In this document: piece after piece, positions 2,990-38,131 of the stretch
How the letters are laid out: each line of letters opens with the position of its first letter
How positions within the stretch are numbered: the first letter of the stretch is position 1
NCBI RefSeq assembly: GCF_900105925.1
Contig: NZ_LT629791.1
Location: 5,612,001 to 5,676,000, forward strand
Length of the DNA stretch: 64,000 nt
From: Jiangella alkaliphila
GTDB taxonomy: Bacteria > Actinomycetota > Actinomycetes > Jiangellales > Jiangellaceae
Reading direction: 5' to 3'
The notes under the pieces: generated by a model
The model's database searches: none
What the model saw: the letters and a program-made list of their open reading frames with translations, nothing else
Told to the model about the DNA's origin: nothing
Program-made: the position numbers and the translations under genes

Positions 2990-3068
2990 GTGCGGTTCCC
3001 CTCTCTCCGTCGGCGCCGCCGGATGGCCTGGCGCCCCGTTCCGTCCATGCTTACCCCTTCCAGCCTGG

Positions 3069-22377: not shown

Positions 22378-23408
22378 CGACCGTCGACGTGCTGGTGATC
22401 GGCGCCGGCCAGGCCGGCCTCGCCATGGGCCGCGAACTGGCCCGCGCCAATCGTGACTTCGTGATCGTCGACGGCGCCAGCACGGTGGGCGAGTCCTGGC
22501 GGCGACGCTGGGACTCGCTGCGGCTGTTCACCCCGGCCCGGCACAGCAGCCTGCCCGGCCTGCCGTTTCCGGCCGACCCGGACCACCTGCCAGACAGGGA
22601 CGAGGTGGCCCGGTACCTGAGCGACTACCTCAGCCACTTCGGTCTGCCCGTGCGGCTCGACACCGCCGTGCGTCACCTGCGGCAGGTAGACGGTGGGTTC
22701 CAGGCCGTCACCACCCAAGGCGGCTACATCGCTCGCGCCGTCGTGGTCGCCACCGGACCCTTCCAGCGACCCGCAATACCGGCCCTGACGGGAGGGCTGG
22801 AGCCCGACATCGCGCAACTCCATGCCGCGGACTACCGCAACTCGGACCAGCTTCCCGAGGGGCCGGTGCTGGTGGTCGGGTCGGGTAACTCCGGCGTGCA
22901 GATCGCCGACGAACTCGCGCGCACACGGCCCGTCGTCCTGGCCGCGGGCCGCCGGCAGCCGGTCCTGCCCCAGCGGCTCCTCGGCCGGGACGTGTTCTCC
23001 TGGCTCGACCAGTTGCGCGTCATGAACATCCCGGCCGACAGCCGCATCGGCCGGCGCATGCGGGAACGGGACCCGCTCATCGGCACCGGCCCGCGGGCGC
23101 TGCGACGCACCGGCGTCCGGGTGGTCGACCGCGTCGCCGGTGCCGTCGGCCGCGCGCTGCGCACGGCCGACGGCACTATGATCGAGCCGGCCACCGTCAT
23201 TTGGGCCACCGGCTACCAGCCCGACTACAGCTGGCTCGACGTCCCACACGCTGTCGGCGGCGACGGCTGGCCTCAGCACACCGCCGGCGTCAGCCCGATC
23301 CCCCGCCTGCACTTCCTCGGACTGCCCTACCAGCGCACCCGTGGCTCCGCACTGATCGGCTGGGTCGGCACCGATGCGGCCTACCTCGGCGACCGCCTGG
23401 CGCGCTGA
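22374..23408 (+). CDS. FAD/NAD(P)-binding monooxygenase-like protein (CzcO/ArsO type)
   Basis: A 344-residue flavoprotein with two Rossmann motifs: VLVIGAGQAGLAMGRELARA for FAD and VLVVGSGNSGVQIADELART for NAD(P)H. WRRRWDSLRLFTPARHSSLP is typical of CzcO/YwdC-like and ArsO proteins, and the ATGYQPDYSWL segment closes the FAD site. Homologues occur in arsenic and metal operons, but no substrate is proven for this branch. It is translationally coupled to the CmtR-type repressor, so its expression should be metal-responsive. It lacks the CxxxxC disulfide of MerA and is not mercuric reductase. Confidence 0.85.
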   Translation: MTTVDVLVIGAGQAGLAMGRELARANRDFVIVDGASTVGESWRRRWDSLRLFTPARHSSLPGLPFPADPDHLPDRDEVARYLSDYLSHFGLPVRLDTAVRHLRQVDGGFQAVTTQGGYIARAVVVATGPFQRPAIPALTGGLEPDIAQLHAADYRNSDQLPEGPVLVVGSGNSGVQIADELARTRPVVLAAGRRQPVLPQRLLGRDVFSWLDQLRVMNIPADSRIGRRMRERDPLIGTGPRALRRTGVRVVDRVAGAVGRALRTADGTMIEPATVIWATGYQPDYSWLDVPHAVGGDGWPQHTAGVSPIPRLHFLGLPYQRTRGSALIGWVGTDAAYLGDRLAR

Positions 23409-23431
23409 CCTACGGGCTTCGTCATCAGCGC

Positions 23432-23463
23432 TTGACCCTGTACCGGGTTACGGGGTCGATGAT
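23432..23463 (+). promoter_or_regulatory. merR autoregulated promoter/operator
   Basis: TTGACC (23432-23437), a 19-20 base spacer containing the dyad GACCCTGTAC / GTTACGGGGTC, then CGATGAT. The long spacer with a central dyad is the hallmark of MerR-family activation. The start ATG 23470 lies less than 10 bases after the -10, so the transcript is nearly leaderless. It drives merR and both merB-type genes. Confidence 0.7.
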
Positions 23464-23469
23464 GGCGGC

Positions 23470-23883
23470 ATGAGGACGAGCGAGCTGGCCGGCCACGTGG
23501 GCGTGAACCCGGAGACGCTGCGCTACTACGAGCGCCGCGGACTTCTCGACGAGCCGCCGCGGACGCCGGGCGGGCACCGCGACTACCCGGACACCACCGT
23601 GCGGCTGCTGCGGTTCGTCAAGCGCGCCCAGGAGCTCGGCTTCACCCTCGACGAGGTCGAGGAGCTGCTCCACCTCGACGCCGGCGGCCCGGACGGCTGC
23701 GACGCCGCCCGGGCGCTCGCCGTCGCCCGGAAGTCCGATCTGGAGGCCCGGATCGCGGACCTGCAGCGGATGCGCGACGGCCTCGCCGACCTCGTCGAGA
23801 CCTGCGACCTGCCGCGGGACGACCGCAGCTGCCGGCTGCTGGTGGCCATCGAGCCGCCGCCCCGACCGGAGGACGGCCGATGA
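23470..23883 (+). CDS. merR: MerR-family mercury-responsive regulator
   Basis: A 137-residue MerR activator. The winged HTH begins MRTSELAGHVGVNPETLRYY and continues ERRGLLDEPPRTPGGHRDYP; a dimerisation helix follows. Cys77 (GPDGCDAA), Cys112 and Cys121 (ETCDLPRDDRSCRLL) have the spacings 35 and 9 of the Hg-binding Cys82, Cys117 and Cys126 of Tn501/Tn21 MerR. Hg(II) sensing is thus well supported. ATGA coupling to the next gene makes merR the first gene of a merR-merB-merB operon. No merA, merT or merP lies in the window. Confidence 0.92.
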   Translation: MRTSELAGHVGVNPETLRYYERRGLLDEPPRTPGGHRDYPDTTVRLLRFVKRAQELGFTLDEVEELLHLDAGGPDGCDAARALAVARKSDLEARIADLQRMRDGLADLVETCDLPRDDRSCRLLVAIEPPPRPEDGR

Positions 23884-24842
23884 GCACCGAGCCGGCCCCT
23901 CGACTGGACGTGCTCCACGTGGCCGAGTGCCCGAACCTCGCTCCCCTGCTGGAACGGTTGCGCGAGGTCACGGACCTGCCGGTCACGGTCCGCGAGATCA
24001 CCACCGACGAGGAGGCCGCGTCGTCCGGCATGGCCGGGTCGCCCACGCTGCTCATCGACGGCACCGACCCGTTCGGCGCGCCTGACGACTGCGGCTGCGG
24101 GGTCGCCTGCCGGCTCTACCGCGACGACGACGGCCGCCTCGTCCCAGTACCGTCCACCGAGCAACTGCGGCAGGCACTCAGGGCCGCGACGCCGAGCGGC
24201 CCGGCGGACGTCGTCGACGCCCTGGCCGCCGCGCGCGCCCGGGCCGTGCCGCTGGACCCGGCCCAGCGCGCTGTGCACCAGGCGATCCTGCGCCACTTCG
24301 CCGCCGCCGGCCGGCCGCCCACGCGGGCCGACCTCGACGCCGTCACGGCAGACCCCGCTCGCACCGCCGCCGCACTCGCCGAGCTGCACGACCTCGACGC
24401 CGTCCGCCTCGACCCGGCGGGAGGGATCGTCGTCGCGTACCCGTTCTCCGCCACGCCGACCCGGCATCGGGTCCGCATCGCCGGCCGCACCGACGTCCAC
24501 GCGATGTGCGCGATCGACGCCCTCGGCATCGCACCCATGCTCGGTCAGGACACGCGGATCGACTCCCTCGACGTCACCACCGGCCGCGCCGTCGCCGTCA
24601 CGACGGCCGGTGGCCGGACGTCGTGGGAGCCGGCTGACGCCGTGGTGTTCGTCGGCGCCGACACCTGCGGCGGCGCCGCGGCCGACTGCTGCTGCGACTA
24701 CCTGAACTTCTTCACCAGCCACGCCGCCGCACAGGCCTGGACCGACGCCCACCCGCAGATCCCCGGCCAGATCCTCGACCAGCACGAAGCGCAAGAACTC
24801 GCCGGCCGGGTCTTCGGGCCGCTCCTGGAGGTCGCCCCATGA
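23880..24842 (+). CDS. Alkylmercury lyase-like protein with N-terminal thioredoxin-like domain
   Basis: A 320-residue fusion. Residues about 8-105 are thioredoxin-like (LDVLHVAECPNLAPLLERL, then the cis-Pro segment GSPTLLIDGTDPF) with Cys71, Cys73 and Cys77 in DDCGCGVACRLY. Residues about 125-200 form a winged helix, and 205-315 a MerB catalytic domain: Cys210 and Asp213 (HAMCAIDALGI) match Cys96/Asp99 of E. coli-plasmid MerB, and Cys270-272 (ADCCCDYLNFFTSH) supplies the Cys159 equivalent. The lyase protonolyses C-Hg bonds. The thioredoxin part may pass thiols or Hg(II) on. Overlaps merR and the second merB by ATGA. Confidence 0.85.
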   Translation: MSTEPAPRLDVLHVAECPNLAPLLERLREVTDLPVTVREITTDEEAASSGMAGSPTLLIDGTDPFGAPDDCGCGVACRLYRDDDGRLVPVPSTEQLRQALRAATPSGPADVVDALAAARARAVPLDPAQRAVHQAILRHFAAAGRPPTRADLDAVTADPARTAAALAELHDLDAVRLDPAGGIVVAYPFSATPTRHRVRIAGRTDVHAMCAIDALGIAPMLGQDTRIDSLDVTTGRAVAVTTAGGRTSWEPADAVVFVGADTCGGAAADCCCDYLNFFTSHAAAQAWTDAHPQIPGQILDQHEAQELAGRVFGPLLEVAP

Positions 24843-25471
24843 CCACCGTCGACGACGAAGCCCGTCACCTCGTCAGCCTCATCCGCCGCCAGTTCGGCCT
24901 GACCGACCTGCCACTGCACATCGGCCGGCAACTCCTCACCGCCGGCGAACCGGTCACCGTCGACCAGGTCGCCACAGCCGGCGGCTGGACGATCGAACAA
25001 CTCAGCACCGAACTGCGCAAGCACCCCGGCGTCGACTGGACCGACGACGGCCGCATCGCCGGCTTCGGACTGACGCTACGACCCACCCCGCACTCCTTCA
25101 CCACCGACGGGCGCACCGTCTACGCCTTCTGCGCCAGCGACGCCCTGGAGTTCCCCGTCATGCTCGGACGCTCCGGCGTCATCGAATCCGCCTGCCCCGC
25201 AACCGGCCGGCGCATCCGCATCGAGGTCGACCCGGACCACGTCGTCGCCGTCACCCCCGCCAGCACCGTCGTCTCCAAGATCCGCCCCGACCAGGCTGTC
25301 GACGACATCCGCCGCCAGCTCTGCGACCTCGGAAACTTCTTCATCGACGCCGAGGCCGCCGGCACCTGGACCACGCAGCATCCCGAGGGCCACGTCGTCC
25401 CCATCGACCACGAGTTCGCCGTCACCGTCCAGGCGATGTCCGAACTCGGCTGGACCGCCCCAACCCCGTGA
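24839..25471 (+). CDS. merB: Organomercurial lyase MerB
   Basis: A 210-residue protein of standard MerB length (about 212). The N-terminal winged helix (VATAGGWTIEQLSTELRKHP) precedes the catalytic domain with Cys98 and Asp101 (YAFCASDALEFPVMLG) and Cys162 (RQLCDLGNFFIDAEAAGTW). It matches the Cys-Asp-Cys triad that cleaves organomercury to Hg(II) and hydrocarbon. It is the last gene of the merR operon and overlaps the fused paralogue by ATGA. The two MerB domains are clearly diverged, so this is not a recent duplication. Hg(II) released would need a MerA elsewhere. Confidence 0.92.
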   Translation: MTTVDDEARHLVSLIRRQFGLTDLPLHIGRQLLTAGEPVTVDQVATAGGWTIEQLSTELRKHPGVDWTDDGRIAGFGLTLRPTPHSFTTDGRTVYAFCASDALEFPVMLGRSGVIESACPATGRRIRIEVDPDHVVAVTPASTVVSKIRPDQAVDDIRRQLCDLGNFFIDAEAAGTWTTQHPEGHVVPIDHEFAVTVQAMSELGWTAPTP

Positions 25472-25768: not shown

Positions 25769-26000
25769 ACCACATCCTTACCACCGCGAGGCCATGCGAG
25801 ATACCTCCAATATCGTGCGCGCGATGGGCCAGCGGGCGGCCCCGTGCCTCACCCTCGCGGGTGATGACACGGCTCACGCCAGCCGTGTCAAGGGGCGAGC
25901 GACCTCATAACTGACGACGCTGAGCACCAGAATCGAGGACCCGTCGGTGGTTGAGTGTTCCCCGCTCACCAGGCCGGATCGATGTCACCGCGGAGGCCAC

Positions 26001-26450
26001 ATGGGCGTCGCTCCTAGGCGACTGACACCGCTGGACAGTGAGGAAGCCCTGCGGCTGGTCGCCACCATCTCGCTCGGCCGGATCGTCTTCACCGCGCACG
26101 CGCTCCCGGCGATCCGCCCGGTCAACCACGTCGTTGACGACGGCGATGTCGTCATCCGCACCCACACCGACGATGCCGTCGTCAGCGCCATCGATGCGGC
26201 CGCCGACACCGTCGTCGCCTACGAGGCCGACACCATCGACCCTGTTGACCAGCTCGGTTGGATGGTCGTCATCACCGGCGTCGCGCACCTCGTCACCGAT
26301 GCCGGCCAGCTTGTCCGGTACGAACGAACACTCCAGCCATGGGTCACTCAGCCGATGGGCCAGGTCATCCGCGTACATCCCCAAATCGTCACCGGCTTCA
26401 GGCTCATCCCGGCCAACCAGTATCGCGACGAGTCACCAGCAAGCATCTGA
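26001..26450 (+). CDS. Pyridoxamine 5'-phosphate oxidase-family flavoprotein
   Basis: A 149-residue split-barrel FMN protein. Family features are LDSEEALRLVATISLGRIVF, PAIRPVNHVVDDGDVVIRT, and GWMVVITGVAHLVTDAGQL near the end. This group, common in actinobacteria, binds FMN, haem or F420 and often reduces small molecules; it is not the vitamin B6 enzyme. GGAGG precedes ATG 26001; the longer frame start at 25947 lacks a ribosome site. It is monocistronic. Confidence 0.85.
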   Translation: MGVAPRRLTPLDSEEALRLVATISLGRIVFTAHALPAIRPVNHVVDDGDVVIRTHTDDAVVSAIDAAADTVVAYEADTIDPVDQLGWMVVITGVAHLVTDAGQLVRYERTLQPWVTQPMGQVIRVHPQIVTGFRLIPANQYRDESPASI

Positions 26451-26523
26451 CGCCACATCCTCCGCGACCGTGAGCGATGGACGTGGCGCCGGAAGGCGCG
26501 GCCCCGGAGGTGCGGCTCCGACC

Positions 26524-26963
26524 TCAGGCGCCCTGACGCTCGGGGCGATCGATACCCAGCGGCAATGCCAGATGCACCGAGCGCGCGGGGTCGAGGTGGT
26601 CGGGCCGGTCATGCCAGGTCACTCTGATCCTCGTGACGCGCGCCTGCAGCGGCTGGATCAGCAGATAGCGCTCGGCGTGGCCGGCCGGGAACTCGTCGAG
26701 CGCCGAGGTGCCCTCGTGTTGACGAGGTCTCCCACATCGACGCGGACGCCGTAGGCCGCCGCAGCGCCGACGTTGCGCAGGACATAGCGGTGCCGGCTGA
26801 CGTGATCGAGCCGGAACCAGGCTCCCGTCCATACGCGGCCCATGACACTCAGCGTCGTCCGGGCCGACCGGTTGACGACGGCCACCGCTCGGCGCGCGTA
26901 CCAGACCGCCCAGATCGCCAGTAGCAACGAGATGACGGCGGCCGCGGAGAACACGACCTCCAT
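26524..26963 (-). pseudogene. Small membrane protein with a frameshift
   Basis: From ATG 26963 the frame reads MEVVFSAAAVISLLLAIWAV (one membrane helix), then WTGAWFRLDHVSRHRYVLRN and VRVDVGDLVN. Near 26720 coding continues in another frame as GTSALDEFPAGHAERYLLI and VTWHDRPDHLDPARSVHLAL to a TGA at 26524. The 440 nt are one base short of 147 codons, so one base is missing near 26720. The topology is a membrane anchor plus a small beta domain outside. No function is known. A sequencing error is possible. Confidence 0.6.
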
Positions 26964-27115
26964 GCATCGAATGTAGCTCTGCGTGAGCCTGTGCCGTCGA
27001 ACCGGCTGAACACGTCGGAGCACTCCGCCCACGCAACGCGCACTGCGGTCGCTGGGAGCCTGCCTCGCGATGGGGGCGCCCGAATCCCTTGGGGCGTTTC
27101 TCCCGTACTACCGGC

Positions 27116-28528
27116 ATGGTCATGCTGTTTCCGGGGCCGGTGCTGGAGGCGCTGCGCGCCGCGCCCGGTCGAGCGGCGTTCGAGGTGGGCCGCCGCACGG
27201 TGACGTACGGTGAGCTGCTCGCCATGGTGCGGCAGCTGACCGGCGCGCTGCAGCGAGCCGGGGTGTCCAGAGGGACGGGCGTCGGTCTGGTGCTGTCGCT
27301 GTCGCCTGAGGCGTACGCCGCGCACCTGGCGGCGCACGCGCTGGGGTGTCGCGTGGCAGCGGCACGACTGGGGTGGAGTCCGCGGCAGCTCGCGCGAGCG
27401 CTGGACCTGGTCGACGTCGTCGTCACCGACCAGCTCGTGGATCGGCCGGCCCTCGCTCTGGGTGAGCTGCTCGCCGGCGCCGGGTCCGCAGCCGAGGCCG
27501 TGCCGATCCCGGAACTCGCCCGGCCGGACGACGTCGCCCGCCTCACCTTCACCAGCGGCACCTCCGGCGCGCCGAAGGCGTGCGCACACACGTACCGTGC
27601 GATCAGCCTCGCCCATCAGCGCGACCATTGGGCGCCGGCTCTGGCTCGGCTGATGACGGGCTTCCAGCGGTGCCTCATCTCCGAGAACCTCGCCGGTCCG
27701 GTCATGTTCACCTATCTCGGACGCACGCTCGTGGGCGGCGGCACCGTGGTGCTTCCCGACGGGCTCGAGGTTCCGCAGGCCATCGAGCGGTACGGCGTCA
27801 CCGCCGCCCTCATGCCGCCGGCCCGGCTGCATCAGATGCTGGGCGCCTCCGCCGATCTCCGCAGCCTGCGTGCCGTCGTGATCGGCGGGTCGCCGGCGGG
27901 ACCGCACATCCTGGGGGCGGCGACCCGGCGACTCGGCCCGATCGTGTGGCAGGGCTACGGGCAGGGAGAAGCCGGCGTCATCTCGATGCTCACCCCCAAG
28001 GACATCATCACCGGGCACGACGACACGGTCGGGCGGCCGCTGCCGGCGGTGCAGGTGGCGGAGCGGGACGGCGAGATCTACGTGCGGAGCCCGCACCTGA
28101 TGACCGGCTACTGGAACGACCCGGAGCAGACCCGCGAGGTGCTGCACGACGGCTGGTTGCGCACCCGGGATCTCGGCTACCTCGACGACGAGGGCTACCT
28201 CCGGCTGACCGGCCGGGCCCGCGACGTGATCATGGTCAACGCGGAGGTGTGCTACGCGGGCGCGATCGAGCGGGTCCTGGCCGAACACCCACTGGTCGCC
28301 CAGGCGTACGTCGTCGGCGCGCCCGATCAGGAGACGGGCGAAGCGGTCCACGCGTTCGTCGTGCCCGCCGGCGGCTCCGCACCGGACGCCGAGGCGCTCC
28401 GGGCGTTGGTGCGCGAACGTCTGAGTGCCAACAGCGTGCCCGCGACGGTGAAGGTCATCACCGAGGTGCCGCTCAGCCCGGGCGGCAAGCCGGACAAGAA
28501 CGCGCTCCTCAGGACCGTGACTCGCTGA
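27116..28528 (+). CDS. AMP-forming acyl-CoA/carboxylate ligase
   Basis: A 470-residue member of the ANL superfamily that activates a carboxylate as acyl-AMP and loads CoA or a carrier thiol. Motifs: P-loop LTFTSGTSGAPKACAH, WQGYGQGEAGVIS, and the hinge DLGYLDDEGYLRLTGRARDV followed by PLSPGGKPDKNALL with the catalytic Lys. It is shorter than typical fatty-acyl-CoA synthetases, mostly at the N-terminus. ATG 27116 is preferred; 27122 is an alternative. It converges with the sulfotransferase gene, overlapping it by 20 bases, and is probably part of the pathway encoded at 28.5-34 kb. Confidence 0.88.
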   Translation: MVMLFPGPVLEALRAAPGRAAFEVGRRTVTYGELLAMVRQLTGALQRAGVSRGTGVGLVLSLSPEAYAAHLAAHALGCRVAAARLGWSPRQLARALDLVDVVVTDQLVDRPALALGELLAGAGSAAEAVPIPELARPDDVARLTFTSGTSGAPKACAHTYRAISLAHQRDHWAPALARLMTGFQRCLISENLAGPVMFTYLGRTLVGGGTVVLPDGLEVPQAIERYGVTAALMPPARLHQMLGASADLRSLRAVVIGGSPAGPHILGAATRRLGPIVWQGYGQGEAGVISMLTPKDIITGHDDTVGRPLPAVQVAERDGEIYVRSPHLMTGYWNDPEQTREVLHDGWLRTRDLGYLDDEGYLRLTGRARDVIMVNAEVCYAGAIERVLAEHPLVAQAYVVGAPDQETGEAVHAFVVPAGGSAPDAEALRALVRERLSANSVPATVKVITEVPLSPGGKPDKNALLRTVTR

Positions 28529-29171
28529 CCCGTGCATCGACCCGGGCCCAGAACCTCTCGGGGTCGTTGAGGTGCGGGTACGGCTCGTCGGGCACGGGCA
28601 CGCCGAGGAACTCGCACAGCGGTGCCCACCCGGCCCCGGGCGTGACGACGAGGAGCCGGTCGGGGTGCACGTCGCGGATCACGGCGGCGTTGTGCTGCTC
28701 GTACACGTGGATGGCGTACTCGCGGTCGGCGAACCGGCCGCCGAAGAAGCCGTCCCAGATCATCCGGCGGTGGAAGGCGGTGAAGACGTCCAGGCCGCGG
28801 ACGACCCGCCGGGCCTCGGCGACGCGGTCGTCCGCCGGGCCGTCGCCGAACATCCGGTAGATCGTCTTGCTCACGCTGTCGTACCAGCCGTCGGCGTCGC
28901 GCACGGTGAGGATGATCCGCGCGTCCGGGTAGGCGTCCGCGAGCTGACGCCAGAACGCCGCGCCGGGCCAGTCGACGGTGGAGGTGTATCCCGCTAGGAC
29001 CGCGTTCCAGTCGACGCGGTCACCCGCCGCCGCGGCGTCCCACAGAGATAACCGGTCCGGATGGTCGAGCACGTGCCGGCCGTGGAAGCACGGTCCGAAT
29101 CCGAGCCGCTCGAGGGCGGCCTTGAGCGAGAGCGTGCCCGTGCGTCCGACACCGACTCCGATGACCTTCAT
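28509..29171 (-). CDS. Sulfotransferase (Sulfotransfer_4 family)
   Basis: A 220-residue PAPS-dependent sulfotransferase: the phosphosulfate loop IGVGVGRTGTLSLKAALERL is at the N-terminus, PDARIILTVRDADGWYDSVS carries the 3'-phosphate Arg/Ser, and the C-terminus has LLVVTPGAGWAPLCEFLGVP. This family is common in actinomycetes and fungi with mostly unknown acceptors. Its ATG overlaps the stop of the FMN oxidase gene (ATGA at 29168-29171), so it is the third gene of a coupled operon. It suggests the pathway product is sulfated. Some members may instead be kinases or inactive. Confidence 0.85.
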   Translation of the reverse strand: MKVIGVGVGRTGTLSLKAALERLGFGPCFHGRHVLDHPDRLSLWDAAAAGDRVDWNAVLAGYTSTVDWPGAAFWRQLADAYPDARIILTVRDADGWYDSVSKTIYRMFGDGPADDRVAEARRVVRGLDVFTAFHRRMIWDGFFGGRFADREYAIHVYEQHNAAVIRDVHPDRLLVVTPGAGWAPLCEFLGVPVPDEPYPHLNDPERFWARVDARVSESRS

Positions 29172-30250
29172 GGCACCACCTGGTCCCTGGTGACGTCGGC
29201 GGGTGCGCCCGCGCCGAGCAGCGTGACGGCGTTGGCCAGCTCGCCGCGCATCAGCTCGAGCAGCCGCCTGACGCCTGCCTCCCCGGCGACCGCCAGCGCC
29301 CAGAGCACCGGGCGCCCGACGGCCACCGCCTGCGCGCCCAGCGCCAGGGCCTTCGCGACGTCGGTGCCGCGCCGCACGCCGCCGTCGAGCAGCAGCGGCA
29401 CCCGGCCCGCGACCGCGTCCGCGATGAGCGGCAGCCGGTCCAGCGAAGCCGGCGTGGTGTCGAGCTGCCGACCGCCGTGATTGGACACGATGATGCCGTC
29501 CGCACCGTGCTCCACCGCGAGCCGCGCGTCGGCGTCGTGCAGCACGCCCTTGAGGAGGATCGGCAGCGACGTGGTCCGGCGCAGCCAGTCGAGGTGCCGC
29601 CAGCTGATCTCGGGCGAGAGGACGACGTCGCGCACGTGCCCGTCGCCGCCCATGTTGGCGCAGCGCATACCCGGCGGCAGGTCGTGGAAGTCGTTGCGGT
29701 CGCCCCGCTCGTTGCGGCCGAGAGCGGGCGAGTCCACCGTCACGACGAGTGCACCGCAGCCGGCCGCCTCCGCGCGCCGCACCAGCGACTCGGTGAACGC
29801 GAGGTCCGGCTGGACGTAGAGCTGGAGCCAGAGCTTCGCGCCCGTGGCCGCGATGTCCTCCACGGTGACCGTGGACAGCATCGCCGCGATCATGATCACG
29901 CCGGCTGCCGCGGCCGCGCGCCCCGTCGCCACCTCCGCCTCGGGCCAGGCCAGCCGGTGGAACGCGGTGGGCGCGATCAGGACCGGCATCGACGCCGGCT
30001 GCCCGAGGAGCGTCGTCTCCAGTGCCGGCGCACCCGGGCCGCGCAACACCCGTGGGATCAGCGCCCGCCGGCCGAACGCCGCCTCGTTGGCCGCGACCGT
30101 CACCTCGTCCTGCGCACCACTCGCGAAGTAGTCGTAGTGGACGCGGTTCAGCCGGTCCCGGGCGGCCGCTTCGAAGTCGCGGACGTTCACGATGTCATCC
30201 AGGGCCTCGGACGTCGACGCCGCCGTCAGGTCGACGGCGCCCCCGTTCAC
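29168..30250 (-). CDS. FMN-dependent alpha-hydroxy-acid oxidase/dehydrogenase
   Basis: A 360-residue (beta/alpha)8 flavoenzyme of the glycolate oxidase/lactate dehydrogenase family. Catalytic Tyr lies in HYDYFASGAQDEVTVAANEA, the FMN loop in PVLIAPTAFHRLAWPEAE, and the signature IIVSNHGGRQLDTTPASLDR contains the base His and substrate Arg. DGGVRRGTDVAKALALGA binds the phosphate. It oxidises a 2-hydroxy acid to the 2-oxo acid. The GTG start overlaps the FAD monooxygenase stop. It may act on the pathway intermediate rather than on glycolate or lactate. Confidence 0.9.
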   Translation of the reverse strand: MNGGAVDLTAASTSEALDDIVNVRDFEAAARDRLNRVHYDYFASGAQDEVTVAANEAAFGRRALIPRVLRGPGAPALETTLLGQPASMPVLIAPTAFHRLAWPEAEVATGRAAAAAGVIMIAAMLSTVTVEDIAATGAKLWLQLYVQPDLAFTESLVRRAEAAGCGALVVTVDSPALGRNERGDRNDFHDLPPGMRCANMGGDGHVRDVVLSPEISWRHLDWLRRTTSLPILLKGVLHDADARLAVEHGADGIIVSNHGGRQLDTTPASLDRLPLIADAVAGRVPLLLDGGVRRGTDVAKALALGAQAVAVGRPVLWALAVAGEAGVRRLLELMRGELANAVTLLGAGAPADVTRDQVVP

Positions 30251-31755
30251 AGCCAGTCCTTGATGAATGCGCGCAGCGGCTGCCGATACACCTGCTCGTC
30301 GGTCCAGTCGTTGCAGATGTCCTCCGGCAGCCGGTAGGTCGCGACGACCTCGCCGGCCCTGCGGCGCCGGACCACCGGGTGGAGGTAGCGGTCGTCGTGC
30401 GACCGGTCCGCCTCCCACTCCCGGCCGGCCCGCACGTCGAACGGGTCGATGGCGTCGTGGCCCGCGCCGTACTCGAGACTGACGGTGAAGCAGTCGGCGA
30501 ACGGCACGTAGGCCAGCGGCAGCTCCTCGACGTACCGCCCATCGGGTGTGAAGGCGTCGCAGAGAAAGCCGAACTGCTGGAACAGCGCGGAGGTGCGGTT
30601 GATGCGCTCGAGCACGGCGTCGGCGAGGTCGTCCGCGGCGACCGTGCGATGCGGCCACTCGACGCCGTGGTATTTCTGCTCCAGCATCCGGACGAGCGCG
30701 CGGATGCCGTACCGGAAGCCGTGGATGAACGCGCTCGTGTACCTCTTGAAGTCGCGTGACTGCGTGAGCGTCCCGGCGAAGTACAGGCCGGGCACGTTCA
30801 CCGACTCCCACTCGGGCGTGAGCGCGGGAAACCGGTCGTCGATGGTCAGCTCGGGGCGGCAGCCGGTGGCGAAGACGGACGAGTCCATCCGGAACCCCGT
30901 GCAGGTGATGACCCGGTCGTAGGCGAGTTGGACCACCTTGTCCCTGCGGGCGTACGAGAACGTGACGACGTACTCGTCAGCACCGCGCTCGATCCGCAGG
31001 ATGTCACCGTCGAGCACCATGTTCTGCGTCTTCAGCTGGTACGTGTCGAGGAAGTTGTTGTTCACGGCACGCAGGTGACCGATGAAGTGGGTGCGCCAGG
31101 CGAAGTTGATCGCCCGAGGACCCGCGACATGGATGACCGCCGCCCGCTCCGTCAGGTGGTCGGCGGTCTCGAACGCGGAGTTGCCCTTGCCGATGATGAA
31201 CACGCGCTGGTCGGTGAAGTCGTCCGGGTCGACGGACACGTCCGCGTAGCGCTCGGTGGTCTCGATGCCCGGGATTGGCGGAACGTTCGCCGCACCGAAC
31301 CCGGTGGCGACGATGACCCGCCTGGCATGGATCGTGTCGCCGTTCTCGCAGCCGAGCTCGAACCACCCGCTCTCCCCGTCCCGCCTGTCGACCCGGCCGA
31401 CCCGGCAGTCGTAGCGGATGTCGAGGCCCCGCGCGAAGTCGGCCAGGTAGCTCAGGTAGTCGCCGGCGTCCGGGAAGTAGCGGTCGGTGTAGCGGGTGAA
31501 CCGCAGCGCCGGATCGTCGCAGAGCAGCGAGTTCCAGTCGACCCGCAGGTCCTTCTCGGGGTCGTGCCAGCCCGTGTGCGGCTTGTTGATCGAGATCATC
31601 CGCCGGTGGCGCGGAAAGGTGCGGAAGAACGTGCCAGGCGTCGGACCGCTCTCCAGGACGACGTAGTCACGCCCGGCCTTGCCGAGGAAGTACGCCACCT
31701 GCAGGCCGGCCGGGCCCGCGCCGATCACTGCGTAGTCGACTGCTGCAGACGCCAC
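30247..31755 (-). CDS. FAD-dependent monooxygenase resembling FOXRED2/ERFAD
   Basis: A 502-residue flavoprotein. FAD loop IGAGPAGLQVAYFLGKAGRD, NAD(P)H loop FIIGKGNSAFETADHL, and distinctive PRHRRMISINKPHTG, RVDWNSLLCDDPALRFTRY and RYFPDAGDYLSYLADFARG. From memory these segments match vertebrate FOXRED2 (ERFAD), an ER lumen flavoprotein in protein degradation, more closely than ordinary FMOs. The bacterial protein lacks an ER signal and has its own C-terminal 100 residues. GTG 31755 is chosen; TTG 31782 is an alternative. First gene of the leftward operon, divergent from the P450-like gene. Substrate unknown. Confidence 0.82.
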   Translation of the reverse strand: MASAAVDYAVIGAGPAGLQVAYFLGKAGRDYVVLESGPTPGTFFRTFPRHRRMISINKPHTGWHDPEKDLRVDWNSLLCDDPALRFTRYTDRYFPDAGDYLSYLADFARGLDIRYDCRVGRVDRRDGESGWFELGCENGDTIHARRVIVATGFGAANVPPIPGIETTERYADVSVDPDDFTDQRVFIIGKGNSAFETADHLTERAAVIHVAGPRAINFAWRTHFIGHLRAVNNNFLDTYQLKTQNMVLDGDILRIERGADEYVVTFSYARRDKVVQLAYDRVITCTGFRMDSSVFATGCRPELTIDDRFPALTPEWESVNVPGLYFAGTLTQSRDFKRYTSAFIHGFRYGIRALVRMLEQKYHGVEWPHRTVAADDLADAVLERINRTSALFQQFGFLCDAFTPDGRYVEELPLAYVPFADCFTVSLEYGAGHDAIDPFDVRAGREWEADRSHDDRYLHPVVRRRRAGEVVATYRLPEDICNDWTDEQVYRQPLRAFIKDWL

Positions 31756-31831
31756 GACCCGTACTACGCGAATCTCGACCAAATGGATTGCGGCGAAATC
31801 CCTACGCCGCGGTCGGCCCGTACAACGGACC
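31756..31831. promoter_or_regulatory. Divergent promoter region of the 28.5-34 kb cluster
   Basis: Seventy-six bases separate the GTG starts of the FAD monooxygenase (leftward) and the P450-like gene (rightward). Two coupled operons must start here. The stretch is AT-richer than its surroundings around AATGGATTG. No repeat or recognisable operator is seen, and no regulator gene is adjacent. Confidence 0.5.
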
Positions 31832-33109
31832 GTGAACGGTGTCCTGGTCACGGTGGTCGCACTGGTCGCGGTGGCGAGCCTGCCCTACTGGCTGCCACAC
31901 CTGGTGGTCGCGCTGCGGATGTGGGTGTTCGCTCGCATCAACGGTCCGGACGGGATCCAGGTCCCGGGCGAGCTCATCGACGAGTCCCGCTTCCTGGAGA
32001 TCTACTCACATCCGGCGGTCAACGGACGCAGTCACGGGGCCGGGCTGTCCGACCTGTTCTGGTACTGGCTGTCCCCCGGCGCCGAGGTGCACCAGGAGCA
32101 CCTGGAGCCGGGGCCGGTCTACGACGAGGTGGCGCACTGCACCCGGCGCATCCTCACCATGCCGACCGCCGAGGCGGACCGGCTGGCGGTGCAGAGCCTG
32201 CACGCCACGCTGCACACCACCCTGGGCGCACCGGCGCGGTCACAGGTCGTGCGGCTGCGCGACCTGGTCATGCCGGTGTGGGCGGAGTTCTACCACCGTG
32301 TGGTGTTCCAGCGGCCGTGCACGGACGACGTCCGCGCACTGATCGTCGGCAACGCCGACGACGTCATCACCGCCCTCAAGTGCACCGGCCTCCGGCACCT
32401 GGACCGCCGGCTCCGGCTGACGGCACACCTGGAGCGGGTGCTCGACGACGTGCCGCACGAGCTGCCGTCGTCGCTGCAGCCGAGAGAGCAGGCGTTCTAC
32501 CTGCAGGGCACGTTCTTCAACACCGCCGTCGTGCAGAGCTCGGAGGCGACGGCACACCTGCTCATGGCGCTGGCGGCCGACGACGCCCTGCAGCGAGCCG
32601 CCTCGGACGAGGCGCTGCTCGACCACGCGTTCGAGCAGACGCTGCGCCGGTACCCGCTGTTCGGCGTGGCGCACCGCATCACGACGGCCGACGTCGAGCT
32701 GTCATCGGACCGGACGCTCCCCGCCGGCTCCGTCCTGTGCTTCGACTATCCGGAGTTCCACCGTTCGGGCGGGTACATCCCCTTCGGCGTGGCCGCCAAC
32801 CGCCCCTGCCCCGCCTGGCACCTCGCCCCCGTCACCGTCAAGGCGGTGACCCGCGAGCTCCTCCGCGACCACACGCTCGCGACGACCGCGGCGCACACGC
32901 GCGCACTGCCCAACCGCGGTCCCTGCCTGATGGCCCCGCGCGGCACCTCCGTCCCGCTACGTGCCCCGAGGCTCGCGCTCATGCGAGTCCGCGACAGGTG
33001 GGAGGACGTATCGCGCAGCATCGTCCAACTCGTTCTCGGCACCTACATGGTGTGGGACGCGCGCCGCCTGCGCCTGTGCCAGAGGTACTTCGAAGGGATC
33101 AGGACATGA
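31832..33109 (+). CDS. Membrane-anchored cytochrome P450-like protein
   Basis: A 425-residue protein with an N-terminal hydrophobic helix (VLVTVVALVAVASLPYWLPH). The haem loop PFGVAANRPCPAWHLAP places Cys326 eight residues after Phe318, as in P450s, but Gly two after Cys is Ala. The K-helix reads FEQTLRRYPLFGVAHR: aligning on LRRYP puts Gln269 where the ExxR Glu should be. The I-helix segment VQSSEATAHLLM has an acid-Ala-Thr but not the usual AGxxT. So the fold is probably P450, with altered haem-site residues. GTG 31832 start; coupled by ATGA to the next gene. Confidence 0.72.
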   Translation: MNGVLVTVVALVAVASLPYWLPHLVVALRMWVFARINGPDGIQVPGELIDESRFLEIYSHPAVNGRSHGAGLSDLFWYWLSPGAEVHQEHLEPGPVYDEVAHCTRRILTMPTAEADRLAVQSLHATLHTTLGAPARSQVVRLRDLVMPVWAEFYHRVVFQRPCTDDVRALIVGNADDVITALKCTGLRHLDRRLRLTAHLERVLDDVPHELPSSLQPREQAFYLQGTFFNTAVVQSSEATAHLLMALAADDALQRAASDEALLDHAFEQTLRRYPLFGVAHRITTADVELSSDRTLPAGSVLCFDYPEFHRSGGYIPFGVAANRPCPAWHLAPVTVKAVTRELLRDHTLATTAAHTRALPNRGPCLMAPRGTSVPLRAPRLALMRVRDRWEDVSRSIVQLVLGTYMVWDARRLRLCQRYFEGIRT

Positions 33110-34056
33110 CCGAACAAGACACCGCAACCCAGCGACCCGTCGTCACCCCCGAGTCCCCGTCCGGCGTGCGACGCCCATGGCTGGTGGTCGTCGTCAGTGT
33201 GATCGCCGGATTCCTGCTCACCGTCGTATGGTCGGCCAGCTTCGTGGACGACACCATCGGCGCCAGCGTCGCCGACACCGTGCTGGGTCACGAAGCCGAG
33301 GACGCGCCGATCACCGGTGTCCTCTCCGGCATCGCGTTCGCCTTCGCGACGGGCATGGCGGGGACGTTCACCGCCTGCAACATCGCGGCGCTCAGCGCGG
33401 TCGCCCCGCTCGTCGGCTCGCGGCCGTCGCTGAGCGAGCGGCTGCGCGAAGTGCTCAAGCCGCTCGGGTGGCTCACGGTGGGCGTGCTGACCGTGTCCGG
33501 CGTGTACGGCTTCATCGTGGGGCTGGTCGGCACGAGCATGCCCCAGTTCTCCACCGCACAAGGAGGAGAAGGTCTCTCGCCGCGCAACATCCAGTCCATG
33601 GTGGCCTTCGGGATCATCGGCCTCGCCTTCCTCTACCTCGGCCTCGCCGCACTGCGCCTCGTCCCGGACCCACTGGAGCGGATCTCCCGACGGTTCCCAG
33701 GGGCCCGCATGCTCCTCATGGGCGCCCTCATCGGAGGCTTCCTCATCGGCCGGCCGTTCGGCCTGTTCCGCCAGCTCTTCCGCGACGCCGCCGAAAGCGG
33801 CAACCCGTTCTACGGCGCCGCGGCGTTCATGCTCCAGTCGCTCGGCAACATCGTCCTCATCGCCGTGCTGTTCGTGCTCCTCGCGCTGGTGACAGGCGGC
33901 CGAGCGGGCCGCTGGCTGATCGCCCGGCCGGCCCGGCTGGCCGTCATCACCGGCGCGTCGTTCATCGTCGTCGGCGTCTTCACCTTCCTCTACTGGGACG
34001 TCCGCATCCTCGCCCGCAACGACCTCATCTGGTACCCGACGGCCCCATGGTCGTGA
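33106..34056 (+). CDS. Polytopic membrane protein of the 27-34 kb cluster
   Basis: A 316-residue protein with seven or eight transmembrane segments. An N-terminal tail of about 25 polar residues is followed by WLVVVVSVIAGFLLTVVWSA and ATGMAGTFTACNIAALSAVA, a large loop containing FSTAQGGEGLSPRNIQSMVA, and FLIGRPFGLFRQLFRDAAES. The single Cys in TFTACNIAAL sits in a helix, loosely recalling CcdA/DsbD proteins, but no Cys-Pro pair exists. No family is recognised. ATGA coupling to the P450-like gene suggests an electron-transfer partner or an exporter. Confidence 0.75.
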   Translation: MTEQDTATQRPVVTPESPSGVRRPWLVVVVSVIAGFLLTVVWSASFVDDTIGASVADTVLGHEAEDAPITGVLSGIAFAFATGMAGTFTACNIAALSAVAPLVGSRPSLSERLREVLKPLGWLTVGVLTVSGVYGFIVGLVGTSMPQFSTAQGGEGLSPRNIQSMVAFGIIGLAFLYLGLAALRLVPDPLERISRRFPGARMLLMGALIGGFLIGRPFGLFRQLFRDAAESGNPFYGAAAFMLQSLGNIVLIAVLFVLLALVTGGRAGRWLIARPARLAVITGASFIVVGVFTFLYWDVRILARNDLIWYPTAPWS

Positions 34057-34153
34057 CCTTCGTCCACCGCCGGAACCCGTCATGCTGAGCGACGTCGATT
34101 CGATCCGGACCCCTTCGTCGCCCTGGGTCCATGCGCGATAGCCACCAGCCGCA

Positions 34154-34276
34154 TCAGGCTCGGCATCGGCGTGACCTCACCGGCACTGCACTCGGCCCGG
34201 CCGCCGCGGCCGGGTTCGCCAGCTGCTCGAGGAACGCAAGGCCCTCGGGTCCGATGTCCAGGGGCGGCGGCCTCAT
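34154..34276 (-). pseudogene. N-terminal remnant of a hydrolase-like gene
   Basis: Starting at ATG 34276, which overlaps the sigma factor stop in ATGA, 40 codons read MRPPPLDIGPEGLAFLEQLA and then PAAAAGPSAVPVRSRRCRA before TGA. The first 25 residues resemble the N-terminus of alpha/beta-hydrolase-type proteins that follow sigma genes. No continuation is found in other frames. It looks like a gene that has lost everything after its first 80 bases. Low certainty on identity. Confidence 0.4.
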
Positions 34277-35295
34277 CGCGTACTCCTCGTGCGCGTACTC
34301 GGGTAGCCGCCATTGGTGGCTGTGCGGTCGAACTCGTGGGGTAGCCCGAATGCCGGGAAGAGGGTGGCGTCGGCGAACCCGGTGATGCCGGCCACCGATC
34401 CGTCGCGCAGGTCCAGGACCATGACGCCGTACGCCGCGACGTCCCCGTCGTCGTCGGGTCCGTAGGCCGCCAGGGCGGTCTGTCCATTGGCGGCTGTGAC
34501 GATGAGCGGGATGAGGTCGAGGCGACCACCGGCCGGGACCGTGGACAGGAAGGCCATGATCTCGTCGGGGCCATGTAGCGCGAGCGGTTCCGGCGGCATG
34601 CGCAGCACAGCATCCTCGCTGAGCAGGGTGATGAGGCAGTCGATGTCGCGGCGCGACCAGGCGTCCAAGAACCGCTCCAGGACGGTGACGTCGGCCGGTG
34701 TCAGCTCGCGGCCGGCTCCCGGGCCAGCGCCACGCAGCCTCGTTCGTGCCCGTTGCAGGCCGCTGTTGACCGTGGCCACACTCGTGTCGAGAGCCTCGGC
34801 GATCTCGGCGCTGCTGAAGGCCAGGACGTCCTTCAAAATGACCGCTGCCCGCTGAGTCGCTGGCAGGAGTTGCAGGGCGGACACGAAGGCGAGTGTCACG
34901 CTCTCGCGCTGTTCGGCCTCGCGCGCCGGATCGAGGCTCGCGGCCGGCAGGGCGTCGAGGAGCCGGTCGGGGTACGGCTGCAGGTGAGCGAGGTCTTCCA
35001 CGAGCTGTGGCCGGCGTCCCGCGGCCCGGATCATCATCAGGCAGGTGGTGGTCGCGATCCGGTACAGCCAGTGCGAGAACGGCGCCCGCGCCTCGTAGCT
35101 CCCCAACGCTGACCAGGCGCGCAGCAGCGTCTCCTGCGTCGCCTCCTCGGCGTCATGGAAAGACCCCAGCATGCGGTAGCAGTGCAAGTGGATCCCGCCT
35201 CGGTGTGGTCCCACCAGTTCGGCGAAGGCATGTCCGTCGCCGTCACGCGCGGCAGCGAAGGACGTCGACTGGTCAGCTGGGACCACTGGTCTCAC
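34273..35295 (-). CDS. ECF sigma factor with SnoaL-like C-terminal domain (SigG-like)
   Basis: A 340-residue sigma factor. Region 2: HLHCYRMLGSFHDAEEATQE then TLLRAWSALGSYE; region 4: FSSAEIAEALDTSVATVNSG LQRARTRL. After residue 200 comes a SnoaL/NTF2-like domain (VLERFLDAWSRRDIDCLITL, LSEDAVLRMPPEPLALHGPD). This matches the SigG/SigX5 group, with regulation through the fused domain rather than an anti-sigma factor. Start GTG 35295. It is divergent from a free-standing SnoaL-like gene at 35390, a possible target or partner. Confidence 0.9.
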   Translation of the reverse strand: MRPVVPADQSTSFAAARDGDGHAFAELVGPHRGGIHLHCYRMLGSFHDAEEATQETLLRAWSALGSYEARAPFSHWLYRIATTTCLMMIRAAGRRPQLVEDLAHLQPYPDRLLDALPAASLDPAREAEQRESVTLAFVSALQLLPATQRAAVILKDVLAFSSAEIAEALDTSVATVNSGLQRARTRLRGAGPGAGRELTPADVTVLERFLDAWSRRDIDCLITLLSEDAVLRMPPEPLALHGPDEIMAFLSTVPAGGRLDLIPLIVTAANGQTALAAYGPDDDGDVAAYGVMVLDLRDGSVAGITGFADATLFPAFGLPHEFDRTATNGGYPSTRTRSTR

Positions 35296-35389
35296 CTCTC
35301 GGGGTGCAGCGGCGCGGGCGATGAATGTCGCGTCGTCGCGGCATCAAACGCGTCGTCCACACCACATCACTTGCTGAAGGAGCACTGTC

Positions 35390-35746
35390 ATGGACGCGAC
35401 GCGAGTCATCGGCGTCTACTACGACGCCTGGAAGAACAAGAAGGGAGACATGACCGGGGTCCCGCTGGCCGATGACATGGTCTTCAAGGGCCCGATCGTC
35501 AGCTTCACCGACGCCGCCGGGTTCACGCAGATGGCCGCCGAGGCCGGCGCAGCCGTCACCGCGTTCGAGGTGCGGCGTCAGTTCACCGACGGATCGACCA
35601 TCTGCTCGATCGTCGACTGGCAGATGGCCATGCTGCCCGGGGAAGTCCTCACCTCGGCCGAGATCCTCGAGGTGGAGGACGGGCAGATCGTGCGAGGTGA
35701 ACTGATCTACGACGCCGAGTCGCTGCGCAAGGTGATGGCCAGCTGA
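35390..35746 (+). CDS. SnoaL/NTF2-like small protein
   Basis: A 118-residue alpha+beta-barrel protein: MDATRVIGVYYDAWKNKKGD, LADDMVFKGPIVSFTDAAGF and VEDGQIVRGELIYDAESLRK fit the NTF2-like fold. Such proteins act as small isomerases, hydrolases or ligand binders; no catalytic residues are conserved enough here to choose. GAAGGAG precedes ATG 35390. It is divergent from the SigG-like gene and probably under its control. Confidence 0.82.
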   Translation: MDATRVIGVYYDAWKNKKGDMTGVPLADDMVFKGPIVSFTDAAGFTQMAAEAGAAVTAFEVRRQFTDGSTICSIVDWQMAMLPGEVLTSAEILEVEDGQIVRGELIYDAESLRKVMAS

Positions 35747-36504: not shown

Positions 36505-37728
36505 TCACCGAGACGGTCGGCCGGCTGTGACGAGGTGGTCGCGTCTACTGGCCAGGAACTCGAGTTCGGGTTGGGTGGGCGCCAGTTCCGCGGCGCGGGC
36601 GTAGGCCTCGGCCGCCTCCGCGGTCCGTCCGAGGCGCTCCAGCATCGCCGCCCGGGACGCGTGCAGCAGGTGGTAGCCGTCGAGGTCGTCCGCTATCCCG
36701 TCCAGCAAAACAAGGGCGGTCGCGGGCCCTTCGGTCTCGGCTACGGCGATGGCGCGGTTCAGTGCCACGACCGGGGTCGGCATGATCGCCACCAGCCGGT
36801 CGTAGAGCCGGACGATCGCCGGCCAGTCGGTGACGTCGTACGTGACGGCCGCACAGTGGACCCCGTGGATCGCGGCCTGGAGCTGGAACGGTCCCATCCG
36901 ACCCCGTTGGATGCAGGCCAGCACCAGCCGGTGTCCGTCCGCGATGAGCGTTCGATCCCACAGTGATCGGTCCTGGTCGCGCAGGAGAACGATGCCGCTG
37001 CCACTGCGCGCCGGGACCCGGGACTCGCACAGCAGCATCAGCGCGAGCAGACCGAGCGCCTCGGGCTCGTCCGGCATCAACGCCGCCAGTAGTCGCGTCA
37101 AACGGATCGCCTCACGACGAAGATCAGCGCGCGCTTCCTGGCCGTCGGCGCCCGCGTTGTAGATCAGGTACAGGACCGACAGCACTGCGCGTAGCCTCGC
37201 GGGGAGTTCCGCCTCACCGGGCACACGGTAGGGAATGTTCGCCGCCTTGATCTTGTACTTGGCGCGCACCAGCCGTTTGGCCATGGTCGCCTCGCTCACC
37301 ACGAACGCGCGAGCCACCTCACCCAGGGACAGCCCACCGATCAGTCGCAGCGTGAGCGCCACCTGGTGCTCCACGCTGATCGCCGGGTGGCAACACGTGA
37401 AGATGAGCCGGAGCTGGTCATCACGGCTCAGACCGAGGTCCCCACCTGGAGCTGCGGCGAGCTCGCTCGCCGCTGCTGCGGCCAGCTGCTGGTACAGCTC
37501 CCGGCCACGCTGATTGCGTCGTACGACATCGGTCGCGCGGTTACGGGCAGTCGTCACGATCCATCCCGCCGGATTGTCGGGGATCCCGTCCCTCGGCCAC
37601 CTGTCCAAAGCGGCGACGAACGCGTCCTGGACCGCGTCCTCGGCGAGCGAGATGTCACCGAAGACGCGGACCAGCGTCGCCACCGCACGACCATGGGCCG
37701 CACGGAACGCACGCTCGACCTCGTTCAT
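36505..37728 (-). CDS. ECF42-type RNA polymerase sigma factor, second copy
   Basis: A 407-residue paralogue of the protein at 20729. Region 2: DISLAEDAVQDAFVAALDRW with GWIVTTARNRATDVVRR; region 4: LSLGEVARAFVVSEATMAKR LVRAKYKI. The C-terminal TPR-like domain has YLIYNAGADGQEARADLRRE and VALNRAIAVAETEGPATALV. ATG 37728 is chosen from homology. Its DGPF partner lies just upstream on the same strand. The two ECF42 proteins differ throughout, so they arose long ago or were acquired separately. Confidence 0.92.
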   Translation of the reverse strand: MNEVERAFRAAHGRAVATLVRVFGDISLAEDAVQDAFVAALDRWPRDGIPDNPAGWIVTTARNRATDVVRRNQRGRELYQQLAAAAASELAAAPGGDLGLSRDDQLRLIFTCCHPAISVEHQVALTLRLIGGLSLGEVARAFVVSEATMAKRLVRAKYKIKAANIPYRVPGEAELPARLRAVLSVLYLIYNAGADGQEARADLRREAIRLTRLLAALMPDEPEALGLLALMLLCESRVPARSGSGIVLLRDQDRSLWDRTLIADGHRLVLACIQRGRMGPFQLQAAIHGVHCAAVTYDVTDWPAIVRLYDRLVAIMPTPVVALNRAIAVAETEGPATALVLLDGIADDLDGYHLLHASRAAMLERLGRTAEAAEAYARAAELAPTQPELEFLASRRDHLVTAGRPSR

Positions 37729-37753
37729 CCACTCAGGTCCGAGCCACGGGCTG

Positions 37754-38131
37754 TTACGCCGGTTGGACGCGGCCGGTGGCCCGGAACGGCCGGACCTCGA
37801 CGGCGTGGTTGGTCGCGTCCACGACCTTGCCCGCCCACTCCAGGGCATGGTCCAGGCTCTCGGAGTTGATGATGTAGAAGCCGCCGATGTGCTCCTTGGC
37901 CTCCGTGAAGGGACCGTCGGTCATGACCTTGTCCAGGCCGGTGCCGGCACTCACCACGGTAGCAACGTCCGGGCCGTGCAGTGCCCCGCCGAACACGAAG
38001 GCACCAGCAGCCTCCATCTCCTCCTCCAGCGCGACCACCCGAGCCATGAACGACTGCATCTCCTCCGGCGTCGCCGGGGCTCCCTCGACCCTGCCCTGCA
38101 CCTCGTACACCGACAACAGGTACTGGTTCAT
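37754..38131 (-). CDS. DGPF (YCII-related) protein, ECF42 partner
   Basis: A 125-residue DGPF-domain protein: MNQYLLSVYEVQGRVEGAPA, the motif in KVMTDGPFTEAKEHIGGFYI and the end DHALEWAGKVVDATNHAVEV RPF. It precedes the ECF42 gene by 25 bases, giving the same DGPF-sigma order as at 20391-21940 but without a VOC gene. The longer frame upstream to 38446 lacks similarity. Biochemical role unknown. Confidence 0.9.
   Translation of the reverse strand: MNQYLLSVYEVQGRVEGAPATPEEMQSFMARVVALEEEMEAAGAFVFGGALHGPDVATVVSAGTGLDKVMTDGPFTEAKEHIGGFYIINSESLDHALEWAGKVVDATNHAVEVRPFRATGRVQPA

Follow-up and report, generated by a model that had tools for sequence, protein, structure and literature searches.

Class B flavin monooxygenases share the fingerprint FxGxxxHxxx(Y/F/K), and in aromatic ammonia-lyases a His-Leu pair selects tyrosine. 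Sungeidine is the product of an enediyne pathway. The sungeidine sulfotransferase SgdX2 is called an activating sulfotransferase in the title of its paper, as that title is cited in PMC11677658. A relative of SgdX2 is encoded within a group of six genes of Jiangella alkaliphila, at positions 27116-34056 of a 64,000-nucleotide stretch of DNA that was analysed as a whole and is called the window below. The window corresponds to positions 5,612,001-5,676,000 of a host genome that consists of a single 7.7-Mb contig. We propose that the six genes are one copy of a mobile tailoring cluster, which converts a carboxylic acid, possibly aromatic, into an oxidised and sulfated small molecule, and that a resident sigma factor serves the window copy. 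The probability of this reading is roughly even, about 0.48; it was lowered from 0.50 because the nearest relative of the cluster is without an exact match to the promoter element, and because a lyase found in related clusters scores best as a histidine-type enzyme. A first-pass annotation had assigned the six open reading frames (ORFs) to families, and the ORF list together with domain matches and P450 searches bears these assignments out:

27116..28528, + strand: LIG, AMP-dependent acid/acyl-coenzyme A (CoA) ligase, 470 amino acids, separate transcription unit
28509..29171, - strand: ST, Sulfotransfer_4 sulfotransferase, 220 amino acids
29168..30250, - strand: FMN, protein of the alpha-hydroxy-acid oxidase family, 360 amino acids
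30247..31755, - strand: FAD, Pyr_redox_3 flavoprotein, 502 amino acids
31832..33109, + strand: P450, divergent cytochrome P450, 425 amino acids
33106..34056, + strand: MEM, polytopic protein, 316 amino acids

One operon consists of FAD, FMN and ST, which overlap by four bases each, GTGA between FAD and FMN and ATGA between FMN and ST. P450 and MEM, which share a four-base ATGA overlap, form a second operon divergent from the first, and the sequence agrees with the earlier claim that both start inside a gap of 76 bases (31756-31831). LIG belongs to neither operon. It converges on ST, and the two genes overlap tail to tail by 20 bases (28509-28528). Therefore, the six genes are read from their sequence as three transcription units, with LIG as a unit of its own, instead of the two operons described previously. 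The junctions between FAD and FMN, FMN and ST, and P450 and MEM are ATGA or GTGA overlaps, as had been claimed for all internal junctions, but that between LIG and ST is not. The initial observation was thus largely right apart from the operon structure, and the interpretation attached to it is partly supported.

The cluster recurs in other genomes and is not coincidental. A scan yielded 235 candidate stretches, 214 of which encode a relative of the P450; the best 80 loci were kept, and co-occurrence in them was scored by tblastn with identity cut-offs. FMN was found at 77 of the 80 loci, in every case at most 2 kb from P450, FAD at 66 (within 3 kb) and LIG at 58 (within 5 kb). The other partners are a cation/proton antiporter (54 loci), a response regulator (54), a histidine kinase (53), ST (31) and MEM (2), where the domains of the antiporter, kinase and response regulator were confirmed on one protein each. 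Where 6 kb or more is available on each side (66 loci), the counts are 63 for FMN, 57 for FAD, 51 for LIG, 48 for the antiporter, 47 for the response regulator, 46 for the kinase, 26 for ST and 2 for MEM. FAD and FMN are on the same strand in 63 of 63 loci, with a median gap of 42 bases.

A sample of 345 genomes of the class was analysed by scoring a few first-look candidates per genome (at most five for P450 and four for FAD). P450 is present at E<1e-90 in 11 of them, and FAD is located at most about 1.2 kb from it in all 11; eight more P450 matches, with E>1e-5, were discarded as generic P450s. Five of the other 334 genomes have FAD at E<=1e-80, as a 48-49% relative. The hypergeometric probability of the association between P450 and FAD is 2.5e-17 when the relatedness of the genomes is ignored. 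Where FAD or MEM occurs in the absence of P450 (26 contexts), FMN is found in none and LIG in two. It might be argued that the six genes are chance neighbours, since their occurrence is sporadic and P450 is present in one of 12 genomes of the genus. However, the first-pass annotation would have regarded the cluster as coincidental if homologues were never found together, and in many genomes the gene families recur together with the same order; order and strand are repeated across taxonomic families, and two contigs with an acidobacterial label share them. Chance is already refuted by the co-occurrence in the class sample and at the 80 loci, and it retains virtually no probability.

The distribution fits horizontal movement of the cluster as a unit, with no insertion site shown: a comparison with empty sites within the genus revealed none, the left flank being variable and the right flank belonging to a many-copy sigma family. 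The nearest cluster to that of the window is on a contig of a Sporichthyaceae metagenome-assembled genome (L014). The proteins of L014 are 79% (ST), 81% (FMN), 79% (FAD), 72% (LIG, partial) and 71% (P450) identical to those of the window, and the two P450s are sisters in the phylogenetic tree (support 100/96). Two genes of L014, at 729-1236 (sigma factor of the extracytoplasmic function (ECF) type) and 3003-4554 (FAD), are split by frameshifts, perhaps assembly errors. The arrangement FAD-FMN-P450 was also observed on the two contigs labelled as acidobacterial metagenome-assembled genomes (L056 and L080), because of either transfer or misbinning. No paper describing the cluster was recognised by queries of open-licence PMC text, several of which demanded many terms at once.

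The clusters have three layouts. The order in type A (for example L022 and L024-L026) is ST on the minus strand, then LIG, FAD, FMN and P450 on the plus strand, followed by the antiporter, response regulator and kinase. Type B comprises the window and ten loci (L014-L021, L023 and L050). FMN is present at all ten, ST at nine, LIG at eight, MEM at two (L015 and L018), and the antiporter and two-component genes at none. A small ECF-type sigma gene is located at nine of the ten type-B loci, and the window cluster is without one. In the P450 tree, the type-B sequences form one clade (96/88), except for L050. Type C adds an aromatic ammonia-lyase and a further copy of FAD to the type-A layout, and was found at six Pseudonocardiaceae loci of the 80 and at L113-L116, where L116 gave no antiporter match. 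The regulator module appears to differ by clade, being either a two-component system or an ECF sigma factor.

The FAD proteins of the window and L014 cluster with those of the Actinoallomurus clusters (SH-aLRT 97), apart from a clade of paralogues. Each of 12 genomes in which FAD is missing from the P450 locus, nine of them type B, contains one FAD relative (E<=1e-40, 46-51%). Ten paralogues, including six from those genomes, form one clade separate from the cluster FADs. In 19 FAD contexts, the neighbours of the paralogues are of the CMD type (12 loci), GCS2 (12) and SnoaL (11); loci of the paralogue clade are L105, L117-L120 and L135-L146. Since the clade is largely located beside these other families, a FAD encoded in trans was not taken as the missing partner.

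Each transcription unit of the window begins directly after an ECF-type promoter element that resembles those of its type-B relatives:

27083..27111, + strand: LIG promoter-like element, GAATCC-N16-CGTACTAC, with G at 27082, ending 4 nt before the ATG
31761..31789, - strand: FAD-FMN-ST promoter-like element, CAATCC-N16-CGTAGTAC, ending 5 nt before the GTG at 31755
31797..31826, + strand: P450-MEM promoter-like element, AAATCC-N17-CGTACAAC, ending 5 nt before the GTG at 31832

The pattern AATCC-N16/17-CGTANNAC occurs exactly three times in the window, once per transcription unit, against an expectation of 0.01 that is weakened for two of the three matches because the -35 half was relaxed after the window had been inspected; none of 100 shuffles reached three. 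The LIG site fits an independently defined strict form, and GAATCY-N15/18-CGTANNAC occurs three times in the whole host genome, including the LIG site. The divergent gaps of type-B loci contain a common bipartite element on both strands. GAATCY-N16/17-CGTA was found at 23 sites in the 181 kb of the ten type-B loci, in nine of the ten, and at none in the other 70 loci (1.4 Mb); within the type-B loci, spacers of 10-15 or 18-24 gave no match. A long ORF starts at most 14 nt from CGTA at 14 of the 24 exact sites, the window LIG site included, and at 113 of 934 CGTA sequences without the upstream half. The start codons in the window follow CGTA by 8, 9 and 9 nt, which predicts leaderless messages. 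No sigma-70-type promoters were found in 26800-34300, and no Rfam matches at gathering scores in 26000-35500. The pattern GAATCC-N20-CGTA, with 14 matches outside type B, was rejected, because 13 of the 14 lie within the coding sequence of FAD, on the opposite strand, and are not promoters.

In L014, the ECF sigma gene separates LIG from ST, two genes that overlap in the window. The host genome contains one clear relative of the cluster ECF sigma factors, at 572785-573318 (G000:C1), with 60% identity; the next by E-value has 38%. This resident sigma factor was found in 12 of 12 genomes of the genus. The gene directly after it encodes a zf-HC2 protein, possibly its anti-sigma factor. The element CAATC-N17-CGTA is located upstream of resident-type sigma genes in all 16 copies viewed (12 from the genus and four from the family) of the 22 found. 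The window promoters may be read by this sigma factor, encoded elsewhere on the chromosome. Because the window has the type-B promoter element without a sigma gene in the cluster, and the resident relative is genus-wide, we infer that the window cluster has lost its own ECF sigma gene and that the resident one now serves it.

LIG, FMN, ST and FAD retain the motifs of their families. LIG matches PF00501 (1.6e-43) and PF13193 (5.5e-17), its adenylation motifs are conserved, and Lys458 is present in 100% of 58 aligned rows. Among solved structures, 6sq8, a "fatty acid CoA ligase", is nearest to it, and feruloyl- and 4-coumarate-CoA ligases rank lower. FMN matches FMN_dh (PF01070, 7.5e-118), and its active-site residues Lys234, His258 and Arg261 are retained in 100% of 78 rows; the nearest solved structures are L-lactate oxidase constructs, then glycolate oxidase and, lower, 4-hydroxymandelate oxidase. 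ST matches PF17784 (1.5e-64), and its 5' phosphosulfate-binding loop GRTGT is present in 100% of 32 rows. These conserved motifs are consistent with the proposed acid activation, alpha-hydroxy-acid oxidation and sulfation. The idea that sulfation takes place at the membrane is not supported, since nothing points to a sulfotransferase in the membrane and 78 of the 80 related loci yielded no MEM. FAD matches Pyr_redox_3 (PF13738, 7.3e-47), contains the motifs GAGPAG and GKGNSA, and resembles flavin monooxygenases across about 200 N-terminal residues. Its previous designation as a monooxygenase is not supported, because the class B fingerprint is present in none of 66 FAD rows, window included.

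The P450 gene gave no significant Pfam or NCBIfam match, and its product is absent from the PF00067 matches of the host genome. Nevertheless, it is a cytochrome P450, as had been called for 31832-33109. In a phmmer search the window protein matched CYP113A1 (E 8.7e-7), and a profile of 32 sequences matched CYP3A4 (E 1e-11). An AlphaFold2 model of the window protein has a predicted local distance difference test score (pLDDT) of 83.6, and all 50 PDB matches listed for it by Foldseek are P450s, with template modelling scores of about 0.4-0.56 and identities of 10-17%. Helix 2-37 at the N terminus of the model is a putative membrane anchor.

In a motif alignment of 81 rows (the 80 loci and the window), the cysteine of the heme-ligand region PFGVAANRPCPAW, Cys326 in the window, is retained in every row, and both E and R of ExxR in 74. 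The window P450 has QTLR (QxxR) in place of ExxR and is missing the meander, so that it does not have the Glu-Arg-Arg (ERR) triad. Judged by its sequence, the window P450 has lost parts of the heme-stabilising motifs, so that the earlier claim that the substrate is oxidised three ways is not supported. The other ExxR exceptions in type B are L014 (D..R), L017 (R..H) and L018 (W..H), and those outside it are L069 (E..Q), L082 and L092 (both D..R). The meander segment has four residues in the window and L014-L019 and seven in L082 and L092, which are from Amycolatopsis.

Aromatic ammonia-lyase genes adjoin the FAD-LIG pair at 12 places: six of the 80 loci, four further clusters and two detached FAD-LIG pairs (L107 and L110) in genomes that also carry type A. 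The lyase of L107 matches PF00221 (2.4e-134). An ASG tripeptide and a His-Leu pair are present in 12 of 12 lyases, and HMMER aligns the pair to the His-Leu of 2o6y, where 2o78 has Phe-Leu. If the lyase makes coumarate, LIG of the lyase-bearing clusters probably acts on a coumarate-type acid. By analogy, LIG of the window may do the same; as the window itself has no lyase, an aromatic substrate is extrapolated to its cluster from the relatives.

Based on these comparisons, a pathway can be proposed. LIG would activate a carboxylic acid as acyl-AMP or acyl-CoA, and this acid may be aromatic and derived from tyrosine or phenylalanine. FMN would turn an alpha-hydroxy acid into a keto acid, P450 and FAD would perform further redox steps, and ST would sulfate a hydroxyl, either as a final decoration or to provide a leaving group. 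In the latter case ST would be an activating enzyme and the end product sulfate-free. The nearest solved structures of ST, 9kf1 (9.1e-58) and SgdX2 (8y9p, 2.2e-52), speak for this, and the wording of the SgdX2 title suggests that sulfation by ST may be a leaving-group step. However, family likeness does not fix the acceptor, and we consider a sulfate-free product possible, if rather unlikely. Similar doubt applies to the suggestion that type-B P450s are no longer monooxygenases, but structural or redox partners or decaying proteins. Four of the seven ExxR exceptions are type B; the window and L014-L019 have no meander, and L082 and L092 have a shortened one. Against this, the cysteine is invariant, the ratio of nonsynonymous to synonymous substitution rates (dN/dS) of 0.34 indicates constraint, L015, L016 and L019 of type B retain E and R of ExxR, and the exceptions outside type B imply that the change is not tied to layout. 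Such a loss of function is tentative and probably does not apply.

The same enzymes could instead serve the catabolism or detoxification of an aromatic or alpha-hydroxy acid, of the mandelate or phenyllactate kind, through CoA activation, oxidation by FMN, attack by P450 and sulfation as a means of detoxification. LIG is akin to fatty-acid, feruloyl- and 4-coumarate-CoA ligases, FMN to lactate, glycolate and 4-hydroxymandelate oxidases, and a role in stress is conceivable for the antiporter and two-component genes that accompany the other layouts. However, the identified recurring neighbours include no ring-cleavage or beta-oxidation gene, most flank families not being identified, and the type-C lyase could supply the acid from an amino acid, which points to synthesis, although it also fits amino-acid breakdown. 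A catabolic role is unlikely.

Several observations weigh against the tailoring cluster served by a resident sigma factor. FMN was not found at three of the 80 loci, FAD at 14 and LIG at 22; some of these are contig ends, and L034, L061 and L071, where FAD adjoins P450 with no FMN between, are genuine misses. FAD is present at one of the ten type-B loci only (L014). Two of the three promoter matches in the window need the -35 half eased from GAATC to AATC and fit only this relaxed form, and the looser GAATC-N16/20-CGTA gives one match in the window with 0.62 expected. L014 is without an exact promoter match; two of its sites, one per strand, have GGTA for CGTA. P450 has the highest dN/dS of the five genes compared with L014, the others having 0.19-0.26. 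The lyase has its top NCBIfam scores with histidine ammonia-lyase models, below their cut-offs, so that a substrate of the histidine type is not excluded by NCBIfam. The lyase is in neither the window nor any type-B locus, the host genome as a whole not having been searched for it.

Four new points are the strongest: the cluster is widely distributed, its regulators are swapped and an ECF-type promoter is shared, lyases in some relatives hint at an aromatic acid, and several type-B P450s have lost motifs. We speculate that a widespread but little-noticed family of actinomycete clusters free of scaffold enzymes turns tyrosine-derived acids into oxidised, sulfated products, and that its regulator module is swapped between clades, with the window copy, acquired horizontally and deprived of its own sigma gene, captured by the resident ECF sigma factor through leaderless promoters; some P450s in the clade of the window copy would be losing the ERR triad, and their thiolate heme might serve chemistry of a non-classical kind. 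This combination is unlikely to hold in its entirety. If true, it would mean a large orphan family of actinomycete clusters, the core of which has no polyketide synthase (PKS) or nonribosomal peptide synthetase gene. The ECF sigma factor would be a probable handle to switch on one branch, and the P450s would form a natural series at successive stages of losing motifs thought to be essential for heme binding.

MEM is optional in the cluster. It gave no significant Pfam or NCBIfam match and no PDB relative (best E 0.93), and its structure model (pLDDT 42) is unusable. Relatives at E<1e-60 are present in 13 of the 345 genomes, host included. Three others of these genomes (G037, G171 and G274) have both MEM and P450, with the two genes far apart or on separate contigs, and no MEM was found within the 1.1 kb available behind P450 in L014. 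Four of eight MEM contexts viewed adjoin all or part of a DUF1702/UnbV/PKS set. At these loci (L104, L106, L121 and L122), the neighbours of the MEM relatives include DUF1702, UnbV_ASPIC and/or large PKS genes. A Pfam run on L104 identified them as a set of the enediyne type, and the other three loci were grouped with L104 by blastp. An enediyne link of the window cluster, as suggested by MEM and ST, was rejected as an explanation and kept only as a side lead: none of the six genes is a DUF1702, UnbV or PKS gene, and a search for DUF1702 in the host genome found nothing but was also silent in control genomes, so that absence elsewhere is unproven.

Outside the cluster, the window encodes at 22362-25471 a Pyr_redox_3 flavoprotein, a MerR regulator and two tandem MerB (alkylmercury lyase) proteins, the first of which has a relative in three of 12 genomes of the genus, host included. 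Three sigma-70-type genes flank the cluster (20492-21937, 34276-35295 and 36508-37848), two with DUF6596 and one with SnoaL_2. The gene at 36508-37848 has a 92% copy bearing internal stops at G000:C1:6381855-6383099.

SgdX2, a sulfotransferase of secondary metabolism, resembles ST across nearly the whole window protein but belongs to an enediyne pathway, and a Pfam search found no PKS among the six window genes. FMN matches glycolate oxidase (1gox) and 4-hydroxymandelate oxidase (5zzp) over nearly its whole length, with the active-site Lys, His and Arg present, but scores below the cut-offs of the matching NCBIfam models for FMN-dependent alpha-hydroxy-acid oxidases. LIG matches 4-coumarate- and feruloyl-CoA ligases but is nearer to 6sq8. 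The lyases of the cluster relatives share ASG and His-Leu with the tyrosine ammonia-lyase 2o6y, whereas the window is without a lyase. In comparison with ECF sigma regulons, the genus-wide sigma gene and the cluster occupy separate places on the host contig, at 0.57 Mb and 5.64 Mb respectively, yet a bipartite element with a fixed spacer is located at the cluster genes, and an ECF gene stands beside nine of the ten type-B clusters.

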